DNA of 35,932 bases, from positions 1 to 35,932 of the forward strand of contig JAIXRE010000117.1 of assembly GCA_027485375.1 (NCBI GenBank), given 5' to 3'. The position numbers and the translations under genes are program-made. Source of the stretch: Rickettsiaceae bacterium. GTDB lineage: Bacteria > Pseudomonadota > Alphaproteobacteria > Rickettsiales > Rickettsiaceae. This document shows positions 3,009 through 33,821 of the stretch, piece after piece; within the stretch, counting starts at the first letter, position 1; each line of letters begins with the position of its first letter. Under the pieces are notes generated by a model. It made no database searches. It had not been told where the DNA came from and saw only the letters and a list, made by a program, of their open reading frames with translations.

Positions 3009-6000
3009 ATGGCAAAAAATCCAAAATTTATCAAAAATTTACTAACCACAGCTTCTGCGCTAGCTGTAGCAATTGGCACAACTAATGCAATGGCTGTTGG
3101 TGGTCTTCCTGCTGCTGCCCCTGCTAACCCCGTTATCTTTATAGAGCCGCAAGCAGGAGCTCCAGCTGATAGTAGCCTGGCTTTAGGTTTCCTTTTAGAA
3201 GGTGGTCCTGCTACTGCTGGCAGTATCTCTGGGGATAACATCCAGAACGCTAATGCTGGTGGTGGTGCTAACGCTGCTGCTATTCCTGGTCCCTATGACT
3301 TGATAAAATTAGACGATGCAGATCTTCTTATAACAGGTGCTTTTGACCCCGCTAACACCTTTGACTTCTTTGGCTATGGTGGTGGTATTGTCGGTAATGC
3401 TGCTGCTCTGACTACTCTAGGTAATGTAATAAACACAGGTCCTGCTGTTGCGACTGATGTTGGACTTGGGAATGTTGGAGTCTATCTTGCTGCCGTTCGA
3501 GCTGCTAGTGGTTTTGGTGCTGCTGCCCCTGGTAATGAAGCTAACGCTAATACAAGGGGTTATCGCTTTGCTGGTAATCAAGAGACGAGGGTTACTGGTG
3601 ATGTTTCAGCTTTGGGGTACTTCTCTTTTGAACGTTTCAATCAGCCATTGATATTCAATCTTGCTCAGCAGAACGTTGGTCTCATTAGTGGTAATATTGA
3701 TCTTGCTAATGTTGTTGCTAATGATCCTGATGGCTTTGGTTCCGTCGTTGCTAATGAAAACATTACATTTATACGAGGGTTTGATAATCGTCCTAATCAG
3801 AAAGTTAACGATTTAACTGTTGCAGCTGCCAAACAAGTTAATGTCCAAGGTGATTTTGTTCTAGTAAACCAGCTAGAGATAAGAGCTGGTGCTACTACAA
3901 CTATTAAGCCTAACGCTGGCGTTCCCCTTAATCCTCAGGGTGATGCTCCTGTAGGTGTGGATGTTCCAACAGTTGTTTTTGGAGACGCTGCTTCTAAATT
4001 AGTACTTGCAACTGATGGTGCTCGCAACTCTGTTCATGTCCTAACTAAGACCATTGCTTTTCAAGGTCAAGGTAAAGTTGAGCTGAATGCTAATGGCTTC
4101 GATTTAGCTGTTACTGCTAATGTTGCTGCTCCTAATCCTGCTCTAGTAGCCTTAGGTGCTAACAATGGCGCTGGTAGGGTTACAGAATTAATTGTTTCTG
4201 GTGCTAACGCTGTTCATGTTAACGTTCCAACTCGCGCTAAAAAGATAATTGTTCAGGGTAATGGTATTCCCGGCAATCCTGCTGCTGCTAGGGATTTGGT
4301 ATTCCTCAAGATAGTTGACTCTGGCGCCGATGGATTACTACAATTAACTGGTGCTAGAAATATCAACTTTGCTGAAAATACGACAATTGGCAATGTAGCT
4401 GATGCTGCTACAGGTATTGACTTTAATGGTCAAAGATCAACAATAGTAGTTGATAACGGAAAAAATTTAATAGCTAATGTTAATGGTAATGCTGCTGATG
4501 CTGCTGGTGCTGCTCGTAATGCTAATGCTAACCTAGTAATACTAGGTGGAGAGTATACAGGAACAGCAAAAAATATAGCTAGAATGCAGATGTCTCTGAA
4601 TGGAAATAGTAAATTTGTAACACAAAATGCTGCGCACACAATTGCTGAATTAGGATTGGCAGCTAATGTAACGACTCTCCCTGCTGGATTTAAAAATACT
4701 GGTGTGGTTGTAGGTAATGGTAATGCTATATTCGAAGGTAACGCTACCTTTGATGGTAATGTTGGTACTGCTCTAGCTCCTGCGGGTAATTTCAGAATGG
4801 ACGGAGCTAACTCAGTAGTAAACTTTACTGGTACTACAAATATGGGAACACTTTTTTTCAATGCTGCTGATCAAAAATTCTTAGCTGGCGGCAATTTTAA
4901 AGGTGGTCTAAATTTCGTAGGCAACAATGGATTATTTAAATTAACAGGGGACGCTGACACTACAGTTGATTTTAGTGCTGGTGTTACTAACCCTGCAAAT
5001 GGTAAATTTGATTTTAGCTCAATTCTTGCTGGTCATACTCTAACTATAAACAACGCTTTTGGTACAGCGGCTGCTAAAATTAAGGAAGTTAATGCTACTG
5101 GTGGTGCCAAAATAGTATTCACTACTGCTGCTGGTGCTGCTCCTGCTAATGCTGGGCGTTATATCGAGAAGCTTGATATAGGAGCGCATGATACAACTAT
5201 AGTCTTTGATGACCAAGCAGCTAATCCTCTTCCTGTGGTCGGTAACTTATCCAACCAAGCAGGAAAAGGTATCCTTCAAATAAACAGAGATACAATATTT
5301 GGTGATGCTAACACTGCCTTTACTTCTAGTAACCAAGTTAATAAATTGGAATTTACGGCTGATGCGTGGTTAACCATAGGCAAACAAGGTCTTAAACTTT
5401 CTCCTGTTAACGGTATAACTACTACAGCTTTAAATACTGGTAAATTAGAATTTACAGGTGGTGATAACGTTCTTAATTTTACAGTCGCTACTGAGGCAAA
5501 TCCTTTAGGTAGAATGATATTAACAGATCTTGTTGGCGTTGCTCCTGCTGCTGGTGCAGCTCCTGGTGCTCCTAACGTTTTTGCCAAGGTTACCTTGCTG
5601 AAAAAAGCCTATTTTAGGCGCGATATTGAGTTGGCAATAAATAACACTTTAGAAATTCAAGATGATTTAACTTCTTCCCAAGTATCTGGATCTGGCGCAG
5701 CTAACAACGAAGGTATATTCATCTTAAACAATAAGAAGAGTTCAGGAGTTTTAACCTATAACGGAAGGGTTGGTGGTATCCCTGGTGCTAATGAGGCTTT
5801 GCAGGCTGTTAGAATCTCTGGCGGTGACGCAGCTGTAGCTCAGTTTGCTGCAGGTCAAGATGCTACACAAAGAGTTGAATTTACTAATGCTAATACTCCT
5901 GCAACCTTTACAATCAAGGATATATTAGGTGGCGTTCTTAATACTACCGTCACTAGTGCGGGCAACGGTATACATAAATTAGTGCTAGGTACTGCTCCTG

Positions 6001-8204
6001 CAGCTGGTGCTCCAGCTCCAGCTCCAGTTGGTTTAGTAACATTACAAGGTAGTTATGGTACAGCGGCTAACAGGGTAGGTATTACTGTTGATAGTGCTAA
6101 CGTAGCTGTCGACGCACCAGTATTTGCAGATTTAGCAACTACTGCGGATAATACTTATTCAATAAGTTTTCTAAGACCGACTACTGGTATAAATACTGCT
6201 GGTAGTGCTGCGAATGCATATACTACTGCAACGTTCACACCAGCAGCTACTGGTACTCAACTAGGTGATTTATATACAAGACAAGCAGCCATACAAGCTG
6301 GTACAACTGTTGCGTTCAAAGGTACATTATCCTCTGCAACTGGTGATGCTGGTCAAACGACACTTGCTGGGGTTGGTGCTGGTGCAGCTGTACTTCAATT
6401 AGGCACTGTTCCTGCAGCTCCTGTAGCTGGCGCAGCTCCTGTAGCTGACAACACTCTTGCTATACTAGATCATAATGTGAATGGCGTCGCAGCTGGTCAA
6501 GGTGTTGTAGAAATTGTAGGTAATACTTCTATTCTTAAAGCAATTGGTAATACGAGTCCTGTTCAAGTTTTCAGAGTTGTTGGCGTGAATCCTAAAAAAA
6601 TTGATTTAGGAGCTAATATTAGTGCTGAAGGTGTAAACTTAGGAGCTGGTAACACTTATAACCTTAAAGCTACTGCTGAAATTACAGCTAATCCTAATGG
6701 AATTGTTTCTGATAACAACACTTTGAAAATAGCTGGCGGTAACACTTTAGCACTTAGTGGTGCTACAACCTTACAGAATACTACGACAGTTAATACTAGT
6801 TATGATGCGGTCTCAAATAGCTTTGGTAAAGTCGTTGTCACTAACCTAGCAGCGGCTGGAACACAAATAAAAATCGACATTGACGATAAGGGACTAGTGG
6901 TAGGTAATACTCCAGTATCTTATCAAGTTGTTCAGATTAATGCGTTAGGAGCAGGTGTGGTTCCCGTGACTGTAGCGGCTGGGGTCAATCCTCGTAGCTT
7001 GAACACTTTGGCATTAGATGCAGCACAGCTAGGATATATAGTTGCTACCAACAATGCTAAAAATGTTGTTAATAATAACAATGCCTTAAATAACGATCAG
7101 AAAGCTTTCTTAACTCCATTAGTTGATCCTACAACAAATACTAATGATGAAGCTCGTGCTGAAATACAAGCTACATACGAGTTAAGTGATGAGAAGGCTA
7201 AAGAATTTATAGGTCGTTATGGTTCACAAACTACCAGCGCTGTAACTGCAGAGCTTGCAAATCAAAATGCAGAAGTGTTTAGCGTACTTGGTAGTCGTAT
7301 TGCTTCTGTGACAGCTCCTGAAGTAAAAACAGTCTCAGTTGGTCAAGCAGCTGGTGATGATGTAACAAGGAGTGGTGCTTGGGTCATGGGATTCTATGGT
7401 CAAGGTGCACAAAAAGCTAAAAACGGTGTTGCAGGTTACAAATCTAAATACGCTGGTGCAGTAGTTGGTGCTGATACTATGGTTAATGATTCATTAACTC
7501 TTGGTGTTGCTGTAACTCTTTCAAGAAGCGATATGAAGCATAAAGATGTTCTTGCTGGTGGTAAAACAAAAGCAAACACTGCTATGTTCTCTCTATATGG
7601 CTTGCAAAGCTTCGCTGGTGATTGGTTTGCTCAAGGTATAGTATCTTTCGGTTCAAGCAAAGTTACTACACGTAGCAAACAACTAGTTGGCGCTAACTAT
7701 CAGACAGGAACTGGCAAGTATGATGTTCTTTCTTATGGTGCTGAAGTACTGACTGGTTACAACTATAAAATGTCACAAGATGTAGTTTTAACTCCAATGC
7801 TTGGTTTGTCTTATACTAGATTCAATGATTCTGGTTATAAAGAAACTGGTCTTGGCGCTCTAAACAGAACTGTAAGCAAGAGAGCTACAGATAAGTTTGA
7901 AGCGATTCTTGGTGCAAGAGTTGCAACAAATACTCAAATGAACGGTATGGAAGTAACTCCTGAAGCTCATGCTTTTGTAAGACAATCTTTAGGCAACAAA
8001 GCACCAAAAGTAGATGTTAGAATGGATGGTCTAGCTAATCCTCTAGCAGTTAAGAAAGGTAAAGTCAGTAATACACTGGTTAACCTAGGTTTTGGTGTGA
8101 ATGCTAAGTCTGGCGCTATGGAATATGGCGTAGGATATGATGCTACCCTAGGAAGCAAATATATGGGTCACCAAGGTACTTTAAAAGTTAGAGTAAACTT
8201 CTAA
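3009..8204 (+). CDS. OmpB/Sca5-like autotransporter surface protein
   Basis: 1731 aa; signal peptide MAKNPKFIKNLLTTASALAVAIGTTNAMA; long Gly/Asn/Ala-rich passenger; C-terminal autotransporter beta-domain (RSGAWVMGFYGQGAQK...GVGYDATLGSKYMGHQGTLKVRVNF); SD aaggag. Confidence 0.85.
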   Translation: MAKNPKFIKNLLTTASALAVAIGTTNAMAVGGLPAAAPANPVIFIEPQAGAPADSSLALGFLLEGGPATAGSISGDNIQNANAGGGANAAAIPGPYDLIKLDDADLLITGAFDPANTFDFFGYGGGIVGNAAALTTLGNVINTGPAVATDVGLGNVGVYLAAVRAASGFGAAAPGNEANANTRGYRFAGNQETRVTGDVSALGYFSFERFNQPLIFNLAQQNVGLISGNIDLANVVANDPDGFGSVVANENITFIRGFDNRPNQKVNDLTVAAAKQVNVQGDFVLVNQLEIRAGATTTIKPNAGVPLNPQGDAPVGVDVPTVVFGDAASKLVLATDGARNSVHVLTKTIAFQGQGKVELNANGFDLAVTANVAAPNPALVALGANNGAGRVTELIVSGANAVHVNVPTRAKKIIVQGNGIPGNPAAARDLVFLKIVDSGADGLLQLTGARNINFAENTTIGNVADAATGIDFNGQRSTIVVDNGKNLIANVNGNAADAAGAARNANANLVILGGEYTGTAKNIARMQMSLNGNSKFVTQNAAHTIAELGLAANVTTLPAGFKNTGVVVGNGNAIFEGNATFDGNVGTALAPAGNFRMDGANSVVNFTGTTNMGTLFFNAADQKFLAGGNFKGGLNFVGNNGLFKLTGDADTTVDFSAGVTNPANGKFDFSSILAGHTLTINNAFGTAAAKIKEVNATGGAKIVFTTAAGAAPANAGRYIEKLDIGAHDTTIVFDDQAANPLPVVGNLSNQAGKGILQINRDTIFGDANTAFTSSNQVNKLEFTADAWLTIGKQGLKLSPVNGITTTALNTGKLEFTGGDNVLNFTVATEANPLGRMILTDLVGVAPAAGAAPGAPNVFAKVTLLKKAYFRRDIELAINNTLEIQDDLTSSQVSGSGAANNEGIFILNNKKSSGVLTYNGRVGGIPGANEALQAVRISGGDAAVAQFAAGQDATQRVEFTNANTPATFTIKDILGGVLNTTVTSAGNGIHKLVLGTAPAAGAPAPAPVGLVTLQGSYGTAANRVGITVDSANVAVDAPVFADLATTADNTYSISFLRPTTGINTAGSAANAYTTATFTPAATGTQLGDLYTRQAAIQAGTTVAFKGTLSSATGDAGQTTLAGVGAGAAVLQLGTVPAAPVAGAAPVADNTLAILDHNVNGVAAGQGVVEIVGNTSILKAIGNTSPVQVFRVVGVNPKKIDLGANISAEGVNLGAGNTYNLKATAEITANPNGIVSDNNTLKIAGGNTLALSGATTLQNTTTVNTSYDAVSNSFGKVVVTNLAAAGTQIKIDIDDKGLVVGNTPVSYQVVQINALGAGVVPVTVAAGVNPRSLNTLALDAAQLGYIVATNNAKNVVNNNNALNNDQKAFLTPLVDPTTNTNDEARAEIQATYELSDEKAKEFIGRYGSQTTSAVTAELANQNAEVFSVLGSRIASVTAPEVKTVSVGQAAGDDVTRSGAWVMGFYGQGAQKAKNGVAGYKSKYAGAVVGADTMVNDSLTLGVAVTLSRSDMKHKDVLAGGKTKANTAMFSLYGLQSFAGDWFAQGIVSFGSSKVTTRSKQLVGANYQTGTGKYDVLSYGAEVLTGYNYKMSQDVVLTPMLGLSYTRFNDSGYKETGLGALNRTVSKRATDKFEAILGARVATNTQMNGMEVTPEAHAFVRQSLGNKAPKVDVRMDGLANPLAVKKGKVSNTLVNLGFGVNAKSGAMEYGVGYDATLGSKYMGHQGTLKVRVNF

Positions 8205-20969: not shown

Positions 20970-21698
20970 TCAAATTGAGTTAATATATATAAATATGCTT
21001 TCCAGCAGTAAGTAATGGGCAAAATAAATGAACAGTATGTTGCGGCTAAGGAAGCTTATATTGAAGGCTATTCGTTCGCTAAAATCTTTCGCAACCATCA
21101 AAAAATATTCTAGTCCTGCTATAATGCAAATAGCTAACACTTCTAAGTAAGTAAAATTATATGCAGGCATAAAGATATCAAGAGTATGATATACAGACAA
21201 TACCATAGCAGCAAAAACTAGTAATTTTAAATCTAGCGGATCTTGCTGCACTCTATAACCAAGAATCATAATAGCTATAGATATAGTGCCATAGTCAATC
21301 AAGTTTTTGGTAACTGGAAACAATAAAGCTAGAAAGATAACATGGACAAATGAATAATAGAAATTCTTTACCGTATTTTGTGTCAAAAATAGATATACTT
21401 GCCCTAGAAAAATAGAAATAAGTATATTAGCTGAGATATGGAGGTTGTGTACCAGCAAAGTGTCTACATATAGCAGCAAACCATATAGTAAGATAATAGG
21501 GTTAACTTTGCCCTTAAAATTATATCCAGCAAAAAAACAAAACATAGGCATCGCCGTGCGACCTATCATTCGCAATGATACATGTTCAGGAAAGAAATAG
21601 AAGCCTACATGGTCAATGACCATAGCAATAATAGCGAGTACCTTTAGTAAGTCCTGATAATTTGCATAAGCAGCGGTTTTATACTTGGTATATATCAT
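20970..21698 (-). CDS. traX: TraX-like membrane protein
   Basis: DLLKVLAIIAMVIDHVGFYFFPEHVSLRMIGRTAMPMFCFFAGYNF is TraX-family-like; polytopic. Confidence 0.8.
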   Translation of the reverse strand: MIYTKYKTAAYANYQDLLKVLAIIAMVIDHVGFYFFPEHVSLRMIGRTAMPMFCFFAGYNFKGKVNPIILLYGLLLYVDTLLVHNLHISANILISIFLGQVYLFLTQNTVKNFYYSFVHVIFLALLFPVTKNLIDYGTISIAIMILGYRVQQDPLDLKLLVFAAMVLSVYHTLDIFMPAYNFTYLEVLAICIIAGLEYFLMVAKDFSERIAFNISFLSRNILFIYFAHYLLLESIFIYINSI

Positions 21699-21709
21699 TA
21701 CTCTTACTC

Positions 21710-22129
21710 CTAGAATTGATGTATAACGCTAGTAACAACTCCGCAAATATAGCAAGTGTCATCTAACGTAGTTATAGATGGAGCGCTATTTTCAGTCACT
21801 AAAAAGCTTTCACCATTTTCTATCTTCAAGCGACGCAAGGCAAAATTGCCATTAATAACAGCGACTACTATATCAGTATGTTTTGGAGTTATGAACTTAT
21901 CAACTACCAGCCAATCTTCCTCGCCAATACCAGCGTTTACCATAGCATCGCCGATGACCTGCACGAAGAAAGCGGTCTCTGGATTTTTAATTAAATGTTT
22001 ATTTAAGTCGACTTTGATAAAGCTTGTATTATCGATTAAGCTAGGCAAGCCAGCCTGAATTTTCATGTGAAAAAATGGAATAAAACAACTACTATCAGTA
22101 GAAACTTGTAAAAAATTAACGACGTCCAT
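21710..22129 (-). CDS. UmuD-like (S24) protein with replaced catalytic residues
   Basis: IPFFHMKIQAGLPS...DLNKHLIKNPETAFFVQVIGDAMVNAGI...NGNFALRRLKI aligns by eye to UmuD; Ser of GDSM is Ala (codon 21944-21946), catalytic Lys is Arg (codon 21833-21835). Confidence 0.85.
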   Translation of the reverse strand: MDVVNFLQVSTDSSCFIPFFHMKIQAGLPSLIDNTSFIKVDLNKHLIKNPETAFFVQVIGDAMVNAGIGEEDWLVVDKFITPKHTDIVVAVINGNFALRRLKIENGESFLVTENSAPSITTLDDTCYICGVVTSVIHQF

Positions 22130-22173
22130 AAAAAAGTATATTTTGTTACGAAAATAGCATCAGTATGAAATAG

Positions 22174-22596
22174 CTAGAATTTTTGGATTACGCTTGTTAC
22201 CACGCCCCATATATATGAATCCTTATCCATTTTAATAGGGGCAAAATCCTTATTTTCTGGCATAAGGTAACCTTCGCCATTGATAATTTTCAATCGTTTT
22301 ACAGTAAACTCATTATTTACCACCGCTATAACAATTTTATTGTTAGTCGCCACAATTGACTTATCTACAACGAGCAAATCATTTTCTTTAATTCCTGCAT
22401 CAATCATGGACTCACCAGTAACTTGGACAAAGAACGTAGAGTTAGGATTCTTAATCAAATGCCTATTTAGATCCATCCTATTACACATATATCCATCAGC
22501 AGGAGAAGGCGTACCAGCCTGCACTTTCATATCAAAAAAGGGTATTTCGCACATTTCTTCTGAAACAGCGCACTGTAAAATATTTGCAACTTGCAT
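22174..22596 (-). CDS. umuD: UmuD-like (S24) protein with intact catalytic Ser/Lys
   Basis: IPFFDMKVQAGTPSPADGY...DLNRHLIKNPNSTFFVQVTGESMIDAGIKENDLLVVDKSI...NNEFTVKRLKI; Ser (22408-22410) and Lys (22297-22299) retained. Confidence 0.88.
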   Translation of the reverse strand: MQVANILQCAVSEEMCEIPFFDMKVQAGTPSPADGYMCNRMDLNRHLIKNPNSTFFVQVTGESMIDAGIKENDLLVVDKSIVATNNKIVIAVVNNEFTVKRLKIINGEGYLMPENKDFAPIKMDKDSYIWGVVTSVIQKF

Positions 22597-31935: not shown

Positions 31936-32544
31936 ATGAAAATCTTCATCACTGGTACGGACACTAATATAGGCAAAACGACCATAAGCAGCTGGTTATG
32001 CTTGCACTCAGGTTATTCATATTTTAAGCCTATTCAAACTGGCGCTATCATAGATAGGGATAGTAATTTAGTTAGCTGGTTGTCTGGCTGCTATGCATAT
32101 CCTGAAGTTTATAGATATCCAGCCCCTGTTTCTCCGCACCTTGCTGCAAGGCTAGCAGGTGATGAGATTGATATAAGTAAAATACATCTTCCAGCAGAGG
32201 AGAAACTTATTATAGAAGGCGCAGGCGGGATATATGTTCCAATTAACGACAAATTGTTAATGGTTGACCTTATAGAATATTTGGCAGTGCCAGTACTCAT
32301 CGTAGCAAGCTCTGCTTTAGGCACAATAAACCATACTTTATTGACAATAAGTGCTCTAAAGGATCGCAGCATAGAACCACTTGGTGTTATTTTAAATGGC
32401 GAGCCCAATATAGAAAATGTTAAGGCTATAGAATATTACGGTAAAACTAAAGTATTAGCCTCCTTCCCTAAACTTAGCACGGTAGACAATACTACATTAA
32501 GTGCTATACCATTAAGCGACGATTTAAAAAGAATCTTATCATGA
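31936..32544 (+). CDS. bioD: Dethiobiotin synthetase
   Basis: MKIFITGTDTNIGKTTISSWL, YFKPIQTG, LIIEGAGGIYVPIND. Confidence 0.92.
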   Translation: MKIFITGTDTNIGKTTISSWLCLHSGYSYFKPIQTGAIIDRDSNLVSWLSGCYAYPEVYRYPAPVSPHLAARLAGDEIDISKIHLPAEEKLIIEGAGGIYVPINDKLLMVDLIEYLAVPVLIVASSALGTINHTLLTISALKDRSIEPLGVILNGEPNIENVKAIEYYGKTKVLASFPKLSTVDNTTLSAIPLSDDLKRILS

Positions 32545-33821
32545 ATCTAAGCACGCGCGATCGAAGACTTATTTGGCATCCTTTTACCCAAGAACAAACA
32601 GCTAGCATACCTATCGCAGTTAAGAGAGGATTTGGAGCATATTTATATGACGAAAATGATAAGGCTTATTTGGACTTGATTTCTAGCTGGTGGGTGAATT
32701 TACATGGTCACTCTAATGAATTTATCGCAAATGCTATTTATCAGCAGGCGCAAAAATTAGAACATGTTATATTTGCTGGTTTTACTCATGAGCCAGCAGT
32801 AACTTTATGCGAAAAATTACAAGCGTTGTTGCCTAAAAAACTAGGGCGATTTTTTTTCTCAGATAATGGCTCAACTGCTGTAGAAGCGGCTTTAAAAATG
32901 GCTTATCAATATTGGTATAATAAGGGTGAGACGCAAAGGACTGTTTTTTTAAGCCTTGCGGGCGGCTATCATGGCGATACTTTTGGTGCAATGAGTGTAG
33001 GCGCTAGTTCTGGTTTTCATGACCCGTTCCAAAGCTTATTCTTCTCTACTGAAACTATACCTTACCCTTATACTTGGCAGGGCGATGAATCTGCATTATT
33101 GAAGGAAGAGCAAGCACTTGCTGAATTAGAAGAAAAATTACATTTTAAGGGCAATAATATTGCTGCTTTGATTTTAGAGCCCCTTATGCAGGGTGCTAGC
33201 GGCATGCGCATGTGCAGTGCAAATTTTATTGAGAAAGTGGTAGGTTTAGCTCGTTCTTATGGTGTTTTGGTAATTTTCGACGAGGTTATGACTGGTTTTT
33301 ACCGCACCGGCAAGCTATTTGCTTTTGAGCATACAAAGGTAGTACCTGACTTTCTATGCTTATCCAAAGGGCTTACAGGAGGCTTTTTGCCACTGGCATT
33401 GACTATAACCTCTGAAGAGGTATACGAGGCTTTCCTTAGCCCACATTTTAGCAAAGCCTTTGCTCATGGTCATTCTTATACAGCTAATCCGCTTGGTTGC
33501 GCTGCTGCTATAGCTTCTTTAGAACTGCTAATGAGTGACAATACAATTGAGGCAATAAAAACTATAAACAAAGCCCATCAAGTAGGAATGGAAAACTTGC
33601 GCGTACTACCTCGGGTGCAAAAATTGAGGACCATAGGTACTATAGCTGCCTTTGACCTAGAATTTCCACTAGAGAAAATAAAAGAGATCAAAGAGCAACT
33701 ATTACAAGAAGGGTTATTAATCAGACCACTTGGCAAATCTGTTTACCTCCTGCCCCCTTATTGCACTAGCTATAATGAATTAATCAGGACCTATGAGATA
33801 TTACAAAGCTTCATAGATTAG
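32541..33821 (+). CDS. bioA: Adenosylmethionine-8-amino-7-oxononanoate aminotransferase
   Basis: RLIWHPFTQ, LISSWWVNLHGHSN, FFSDNGSTAVEAALKMA, FDEVMTGFYRTGKLFA, LSKGLTGGFLPLALT; overlaps bioD by 4 bp. Confidence 0.95.
   Translation: MNLSTRDRRLIWHPFTQEQTASIPIAVKRGFGAYLYDENDKAYLDLISSWWVNLHGHSNEFIANAIYQQAQKLEHVIFAGFTHEPAVTLCEKLQALLPKKLGRFFFSDNGSTAVEAALKMAYQYWYNKGETQRTVFLSLAGGYHGDTFGAMSVGASSGFHDPFQSLFFSTETIPYPYTWQGDESALLKEEQALAELEEKLHFKGNNIAALILEPLMQGASGMRMCSANFIEKVVGLARSYGVLVIFDEVMTGFYRTGKLFAFEHTKVVPDFLCLSKGLTGGFLPLALTITSEEVYEAFLSPHFSKAFAHGHSYTANPLGCAAAIASLELLMSDNTIEAIKTINKAHQVGMENLRVLPRVQKLRTIGTIAAFDLEFPLEKIKEIKEQLLQEGLLIRPLGKSVYLLPPYCTSYNELIRTYEILQSFID

Follow-up and report, generated by a model that had tools for sequence, protein, structure and literature searches.

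The locus described here raises the question of why a bacterium would keep, next to a UmuD with an intact active site, a second UmuD in which both catalytic residues are replaced. Two open questions lie behind it, namely whether self-cutting is the essential property of UmuD and what UmuD does without UmuC; both have so far been approached with engineered S60A and K97A mutants. The DNA analyzed (hereafter, the window) is a stretch of 35,932 nucleotides from a member of the Rickettsiaceae, the same family as Rickettsia, and it represents one contig of a 1.27 Mb assembly that is 92.7% complete (G000). An earlier note on this DNA had described two adjacent UmuD-like genes, one live and one dead. 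We found this pair to be real, as both open reading frames were recovered at the coordinates below and both gave their top match to the UmuD model. The features discussed are as follows.

22174 to 22596, minus strand: UmuD copy A, 140 amino acids, with an intact Ser63/Lys100 dyad, an Ala27-Gly28 cleavage site and a 27-residue N-terminal arm
22408 to 22410, minus strand: copy A codon TCC, catalytic Ser63
22297 to 22299, minus strand: copy A codon AAA, catalytic Lys100
21710 to 22129, minus strand: UmuD copy B, a pseudoprotease of 139 amino acids beginning 44 nt downstream of copy A, in which Ala62 replaces Ser and Arg99 replaces Lys
22049 to 22054, minus strand: copy B Ala26-Gly27 cleavage-site dipeptide, retained (MKIQAGLPS)
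21944 to 21946, minus strand: copy B codon GCT (Ala62) in the catalytic serine column; both orthologues have TCA/TCT (Ser)
21833 to 21835, minus strand: copy B codon CGT (Arg99) in the catalytic lysine column; both orthologues have AGA (Arg) and every A copy has AAA/AAG (Lys)
20970 to 21698, minus strand: TraX-family membrane protein, 11 nt downstream of copy B

Both copies matched the Pfam family Peptidase_S24 (PF00717) with E-values of 7e-19 for copy B and 2e-27 for copy A, and the top match of both was the UmuD subfamily model NF007621, for which the NCBIfam cut-off is 110 bits. Copy A passed this cut-off with 146.9 bits, whereas copy B fell below it with 100.7 bits, close to the 102.0 bits of its orthologue in genome G084. 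Against the HumD family model (NF051876; cut-off of 120 bits), the copies scored only 34.7 and 65.3 bits. The phmmer alignments to E. coli UmuD among the PDB sequences (8gmt and 1umu) spanned both copies from end to end and placed Ser60 and Lys97 of E. coli UmuD at Ser63 and Lys100 of copy A and at Ala62 and Arg99 of copy B; the E. coli cleavage dipeptide Cys24-Gly25 corresponded to Ala-Gly in both copies. Thus, the Ser-to-Ala and Lys-to-Arg replacements read earlier from the sequence lie exactly in the dyad columns, the two codons had been located correctly, and the concern that the catalytic residues might sit elsewhere in copy B is answered by the same alignments. The copy B frame is open without a frameshift and its Ala-Gly site is present, both as previously claimed. 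Copy A therefore carries the Ser-Lys dyad together with the cleavage-site dipeptide that mark a UmuD, whereas copy B has the S24 fold and the dipeptide without the dyad. The two copies are 52% identical, a likeness that is not due to chance. From these residues, RecA-stimulated self-cleavage would be expected for copy A and is predicted to be absent from copy B. An AlphaFold2 model of copy B had a mean pLDDT of 63.6, mostly 70-90 in the globular part and below 50 over residues 1-50, so the structure of the arm is uncertain; the nearest solved structure to this model of low-to-moderate confidence was UmuD' (1umu; E-value of 2e-7, TM-score of 0.74 by target). Copy B is a UmuD paralogue that has lost the dyad and kept the fold, the arm and the cleavage site.

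It had been proposed to search Rickettsiales genomes for the pair, which proved rare but not unique: among 85 family genomes and 344 order genomes, adjacent A and B copies were present only in the window genome and in G083 and G084, which represent another Rickettsiaceae genus. In G084, both copies lie on one contig of 1.68 Mb, so the arrangement is not an assembly artefact. The copies lie on one strand and are adjacent in all three genomes, with a gap of 44 nt in the window, approximately 42 nt in G084 and 208 nt in G083. An A-type copy alone is present in five Rickettsia genomes, and a sixth (G061) has an A pseudogene. By names that rest partly on sequence recognition, the neighbors of the pair are a sodium:solute symporter-like gene, GNAT and ribonucleotide reductase in G083 and G084, and infB, TraX and NAD-glutamate dehydrogenase in the window. 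The TraX-family gene (F pilin acetylase-like), which follows the dead UmuD and carries a clear ribosome-binding site, is likely to be co-transcribed with copy B; it is absent beside the pair in G083 and G084. Promoter and terminator scans around the pair gave matches at chance level only. A search of the genome contig collection with copy B alone returned no match. A phage or plasmid origin of copy B was considered and rejected, as a scan of viral contigs yielded a single remote S24 match (31%), and the phage and plasmid collections contained only ordinary UmuD proteins, with 33-42% identity among the records listed.

A tree was built from an alignment in which the two dyad columns were masked. 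In this tree, the B copies of the window, G083 and G084 formed one clade with support of 100/100, which joined the A copies from those genomes at 97/87 (94/97 for the A and B grouping in a smaller tree); the combined group lay inside a larger one (98/97) that also contains the single copies of Rickettsia. These groupings point to a tandem duplication of copy A in an ancestor shared by both genera, from which copy B probably arose. An older event, preceding the divergence from Rickettsia and followed by loss of B in that lineage, was not rejected by the AU test (p = 0.105). In G083 and G084, copy B retains the serine (GESM[I/V]DAG) and has arginine in the lysine column (KFTIRRL). Since Lys-to-Arg is common to all three B copies and Ser-to-Ala is found in the window B alone, the lysine was lost before the serine. 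The double loss reported earlier thus holds for the window but is the last step of its lineage, only the lysine being replaced in the relatives. The arginine is encoded by AGA in G083 and G084 and by CGT in the window, which shows that it was retained through codon turnover and that it is not a base-call error. Invariant among the B copies is CxIPFFxMKxQAGxP, which spans the arm-docking stretch and the cleavage site; in E. coli UmuD, the arm docks through T14, L17 and F18 (PMC5342242).

Selection on copy B was estimated with a branch codon model (our own maximum-likelihood implementation, F3x4, multi-start fits). The omega values were 0.029 for the A and single copies and 0.088 for the B branches of G083 and G084. 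The window B branch gave 0.05, a rough estimate because that long branch is saturated at synonymous sites; saturation was far milder for the G083/G084 B pair. An omega of 1 was rejected for both the G083/G084 B branches (2dlnL = 48.2, p = 4e-12) and the window B branch (2dlnL = 30.3, p = 4e-8). Neutral dN/dS and disabled copies in close relatives had been named as signs that would speak against a function; the omega of approximately 0.05-0.09 rules out the former, and the latter were not found, the B frames of G083 and G084 being open. On the B stem branch, the data were compatible with an omega of 1 (p = 0.69), as a burst of change following the duplication would produce, and B evolved 2-3 times faster than A, which together point to a relaxed phase in its history. 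Copy B is under purifying selection and is not decaying.

The cellular context differs from that of a classical umuDC locus. RecA is present in G000, where recA is split over two contig ends (C56 and C61), and the LexA DNA-binding domain (PF01726) is absent from this assembly. No Y-family polymerase domain (PF00817; IMS/UmuC/DinB) was found in G000 by a search that was positive in 11 of 14 control genomes, nor did the single contig of G084 give any IMS/UmuC/DinB match. It is possible that UmuC was missed in the 92.7%-complete assembly, but single-contig G084 is also without it. In G083, only a DinB-like gene was found; the polymerases of G083 and G059 are DinB-like, are encoded on other contigs and fall far short of the UmuC model in score. 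In none of the three genomes, therefore, was UmuC found encoded with UmuD. The usual pol V reading is thus inapplicable to the window pair, which is not a pol V operon given that G000 and G084 are without a Y-family polymerase and G000 has RecA without LexA. Single-contig Rickettsia genomes without any Y-family polymerase (G044, G053, G054 and G062) keep an orphan UmuD (L087, L088, L089 and L090) under strong purifying selection. Taken with G000 and G084, these four make the A lineage an orphan UmuD, and the strong selection on it points to a role that may be independent of UmuC.

The reading that we favor, to which we would give nearly an even chance, is that selection maintains copy B as a pseudoprotease UmuD and that it pairs with copy A, which either cuts the arm of copy B in trans or leaves it on. 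After duplication from copy A, copy B would have lost first the general-base lysine, to arginine, and later, in the window lineage, the nucleophilic serine. It would form a heterodimer with co-expressed copy A, as may be expected from the ready exchange of E. coli UmuD protomers (PMC5342242). On RecA-ssDNA, only copy A would cut, and the arm of copy B would be removed in trans. The premise of such cleavage between protomers, on which the earlier note had relied, is established for E. coli UmuD, in which a live protomer cuts a dead one and the S60A arm is cut by the active site of its partner (PMC5342242). The arm of copy A would stay, because the opposite protomer has no working active site, and the outcome would be a mixed cut/uncut dimer instead of a symmetric UmuD'2. 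Alternatively, copy B might remain uncut and hold the dimer in the uncut state. In either case, the dimer may act on the replicase (Pol III alpha and the beta clamp) and on RecA rather than on UmuC, these being the probable targets because neither a Y-family polymerase nor LexA was detected in G000. Such targets resemble those of E. coli UmuD where it acts as a 'polymerase manager' independently of UmuC; in that species, the S60A mutant binds to Pol III alpha, and the full-length protein disrupts the alpha-beta interaction (PMC5342242).

Of the other explanations, the one that survives best, although we consider it unlikely, needs no heterodimer: a copy B homodimer would be a permanently uncut, S60A-like UmuD with a constitutive hold on the replicase or clamp, and copy A would be the switchable form. 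It agrees with the whole arm kept in copy B and with the E. coli S60A protein, which retains alpha binding and sensitizes cells to UV (PMC5342242). The adjacency of the copies in three genomes and their 52% identity instead favor interaction between them, and exchange between protomers would work against separate homodimers.

The pair might also manage a Y-family polymerase that is gained and lost with plasmids and other mobile elements and is merely missing from these assemblies, which we regard as distinctly unlikely. DinB-like polymerases do occur on accessory contigs of G083, G059, G047, G056 and G063, and E. coli UmuD binds DinB (PMC5342242). These enzymes, however, score 78-100 bits against a UmuC cut-off of 431, and no such polymerase is present in G000, in G084 or in the four single-contig Rickettsia genomes with a single A-type UmuD.

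There is little probability that the pair is a LexA-like transcriptional switch. The idea is suggested by the absence of LexA from G000 and by two reports on Acinetobacter, in which UmuDAb (with DdrR) appears as a UmuD relative that took on a new role, as a repressor, in a LexA-less lineage (PMC11332147, PMC4807011). UmuDAb needs its own N-terminal domain for repression; copies A and B (139-140 amino acids) have the short UmuD arm only, with neither this added DNA-binding domain nor the winged-helix N-terminal domain of LexA. The alphaproteobacterial SOS-box pattern GTTC-N7-GTTC was not in excess in the window, where its 10 one-mismatch matches were below chance and none was near the pair.

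That copy B is a functionless, decaying duplicate is very unlikely. Its omega is well under 1 on both B lineages, its frames are open and free of indels in three species, and the differences between the window and G084 B copies are biased to third positions (42, 29 and 80 at the three codon positions over 139 codons); the arginine kept through codon turnover also argues against decay. These points outweigh the faster evolution after duplication, the stepwise loss of Lys and then Ser, and the lone UmuD that became a pseudogene in Rickettsia G061, all of which decay would account for. The weakest explanation, and hardly a credible one, is the sequencing or assembly error that the earlier note had allowed for at the dyad codons: Lys-to-Arg is secure from the AGA codons of the relatives, and while Ser-to-Ala is found in this genome only and its GCT lies one base from Ser (TCN, as in TCT), so that copy B could be merely a Lys-to-Arg variant like its relatives, the surrounding motif has also diverged (GDAMVNAG versus GESMVDAG), other dead UmuDs have lost the serine too, and the loss of the lysine and the main conclusion are unaffected either way.

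The dyad residues were surveyed in 93 distinct S24/UmuD sequences, almost all of them from Rickettsiales. Further inactivated copies were found, and by the tree, dyad loss must have originated independently five times or more. The window pair is therefore one case of a broader pattern, in which dead UmuDs (umuD*) recur across Rickettsiales, some of them in the following umuD*-umuC operons.

L137, 6259 to 7938 (G029): umuD*-umuC operon
L138, 8564 to 10356 (G220): umuD*-umuC operon
L139, 8359 to 10151 (G219): umuD*-umuC operon
L140, 1050 to 2857 (G219): second umuD*-umuC operon

In these four copies, Ala or Leu stands for Ser and Arg for Lys, and Ala-Gly is kept, as in copy B; a live UmuD is found elsewhere in the same genome. 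Unlike copy B, they lie directly upstream of, or overlap, a UmuC-subfamily gene; their origin is independent of that of copy B. The dead orthologues of G219 and G220, which share a contig with a live UmuD, differ at 59 third positions and 4 of 174 amino acids, a pattern close to that of the live copy (50 and 1, respectively), and these nearly unchanged dead proteins are plainly under selection. The Ala-Gly site is kept in three dead clades and is lost or changed in G233/G234, G009 and G625, a pattern that mildly favors the trans-substrate version for copy B. The dead-dyad proteins without the original site are L120 and L118 (G233 and G234), L143, 9637 to 10164 (G009), and L220, 2867 to 3280 (G625). 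Arg replaces Lys in nearly all independent losses, which suggests that a long basic side chain may be needed for packing. In a class-wide sample, 69 of 73 non-window matches had Ser-Lys, three had Cys-Lys and one had Ala-Arg, so dyad loss was rarer outside Rickettsiales in this sample.

It is conceivable, if doubtful as a whole, that pairs of a live and a dead UmuD are asymmetric heterodimers that switch the replicase directly upon DNA damage, work without a translesion polymerase or LexA and evolved repeatedly in Rickettsiales, elsewhere with UmuC attached. Compared with known systems, the window copies are closest in sequence and structure to E. coli UmuD/UmuD', and they share with this polymerase manager (Ser60/Lys97) the fold, the length, the arm and the position of the cleavage site, with the full dyad in copy A. 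In contrast to E. coli UmuD, copy A has a tandem dead paralogue, no UmuC partner gene and no LexA control. Engineered S60A heterodimers share the Ser-to-Ala change with copy B, and their S60A arm remains open to cleavage in trans (PMC5342242); copy B differs in being natural and heritable, in having Lys-to-Arg as well and in being under purifying selection. ImuB, a catalytically inactive Y-family partner, follows the same principle, in that a dead paralogue serves lesion tolerance by being kept as a structural partner (PMC6511836, PMC12926913), but it belongs to another protein family and another complex. In the open-access literature searched, neither a naturally occurring pair of dead and live UmuD nor UmuD in Rickettsia was found to be described; the UmuD family is known, and the live/dead arrangement and its recurrence appear to be undescribed. 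Evolution has made UmuD mutants of the engineered kind several times and kept them under selection beside or together with a live copy, in some cases in genomes without any translesion polymerase. They represent natural separation-of-function proteins for the study of heterodimer asymmetry, trans-cleavage and the UmuD-replicase checkpoint.

Some minor observations were also made. In one genus outside Rickettsiales, Cys replaces the catalytic Ser (SQGNCMLQA) and Lys is kept (L170, L181 and L186, from G672, G497 and G594), possibly giving a Cys-Lys self-cleaving form. Many Rickettsiales UmuDs (L012-L027 and L138, 6667 to 7191) have an N-terminal extension, GG.R.GAGRPKG.GKYG..TK.IRVP, that resembles a basic AT-hook or DNA-binding arm; judged by this motif, these proteins are candidate UmuD-derived repressors in LexA-less genomes. 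Elsewhere in the window, adjacent open reading frames at 31936-33821 resemble what we take to be bioD and bioA of biotin synthesis, with no further bio genes in the window. A 1731-amino-acid reading frame rich in Ala, Asn and Gly at 3009-8204 has an autotransporter-like C-terminus and presumably resembles rickettsial surface antigens.
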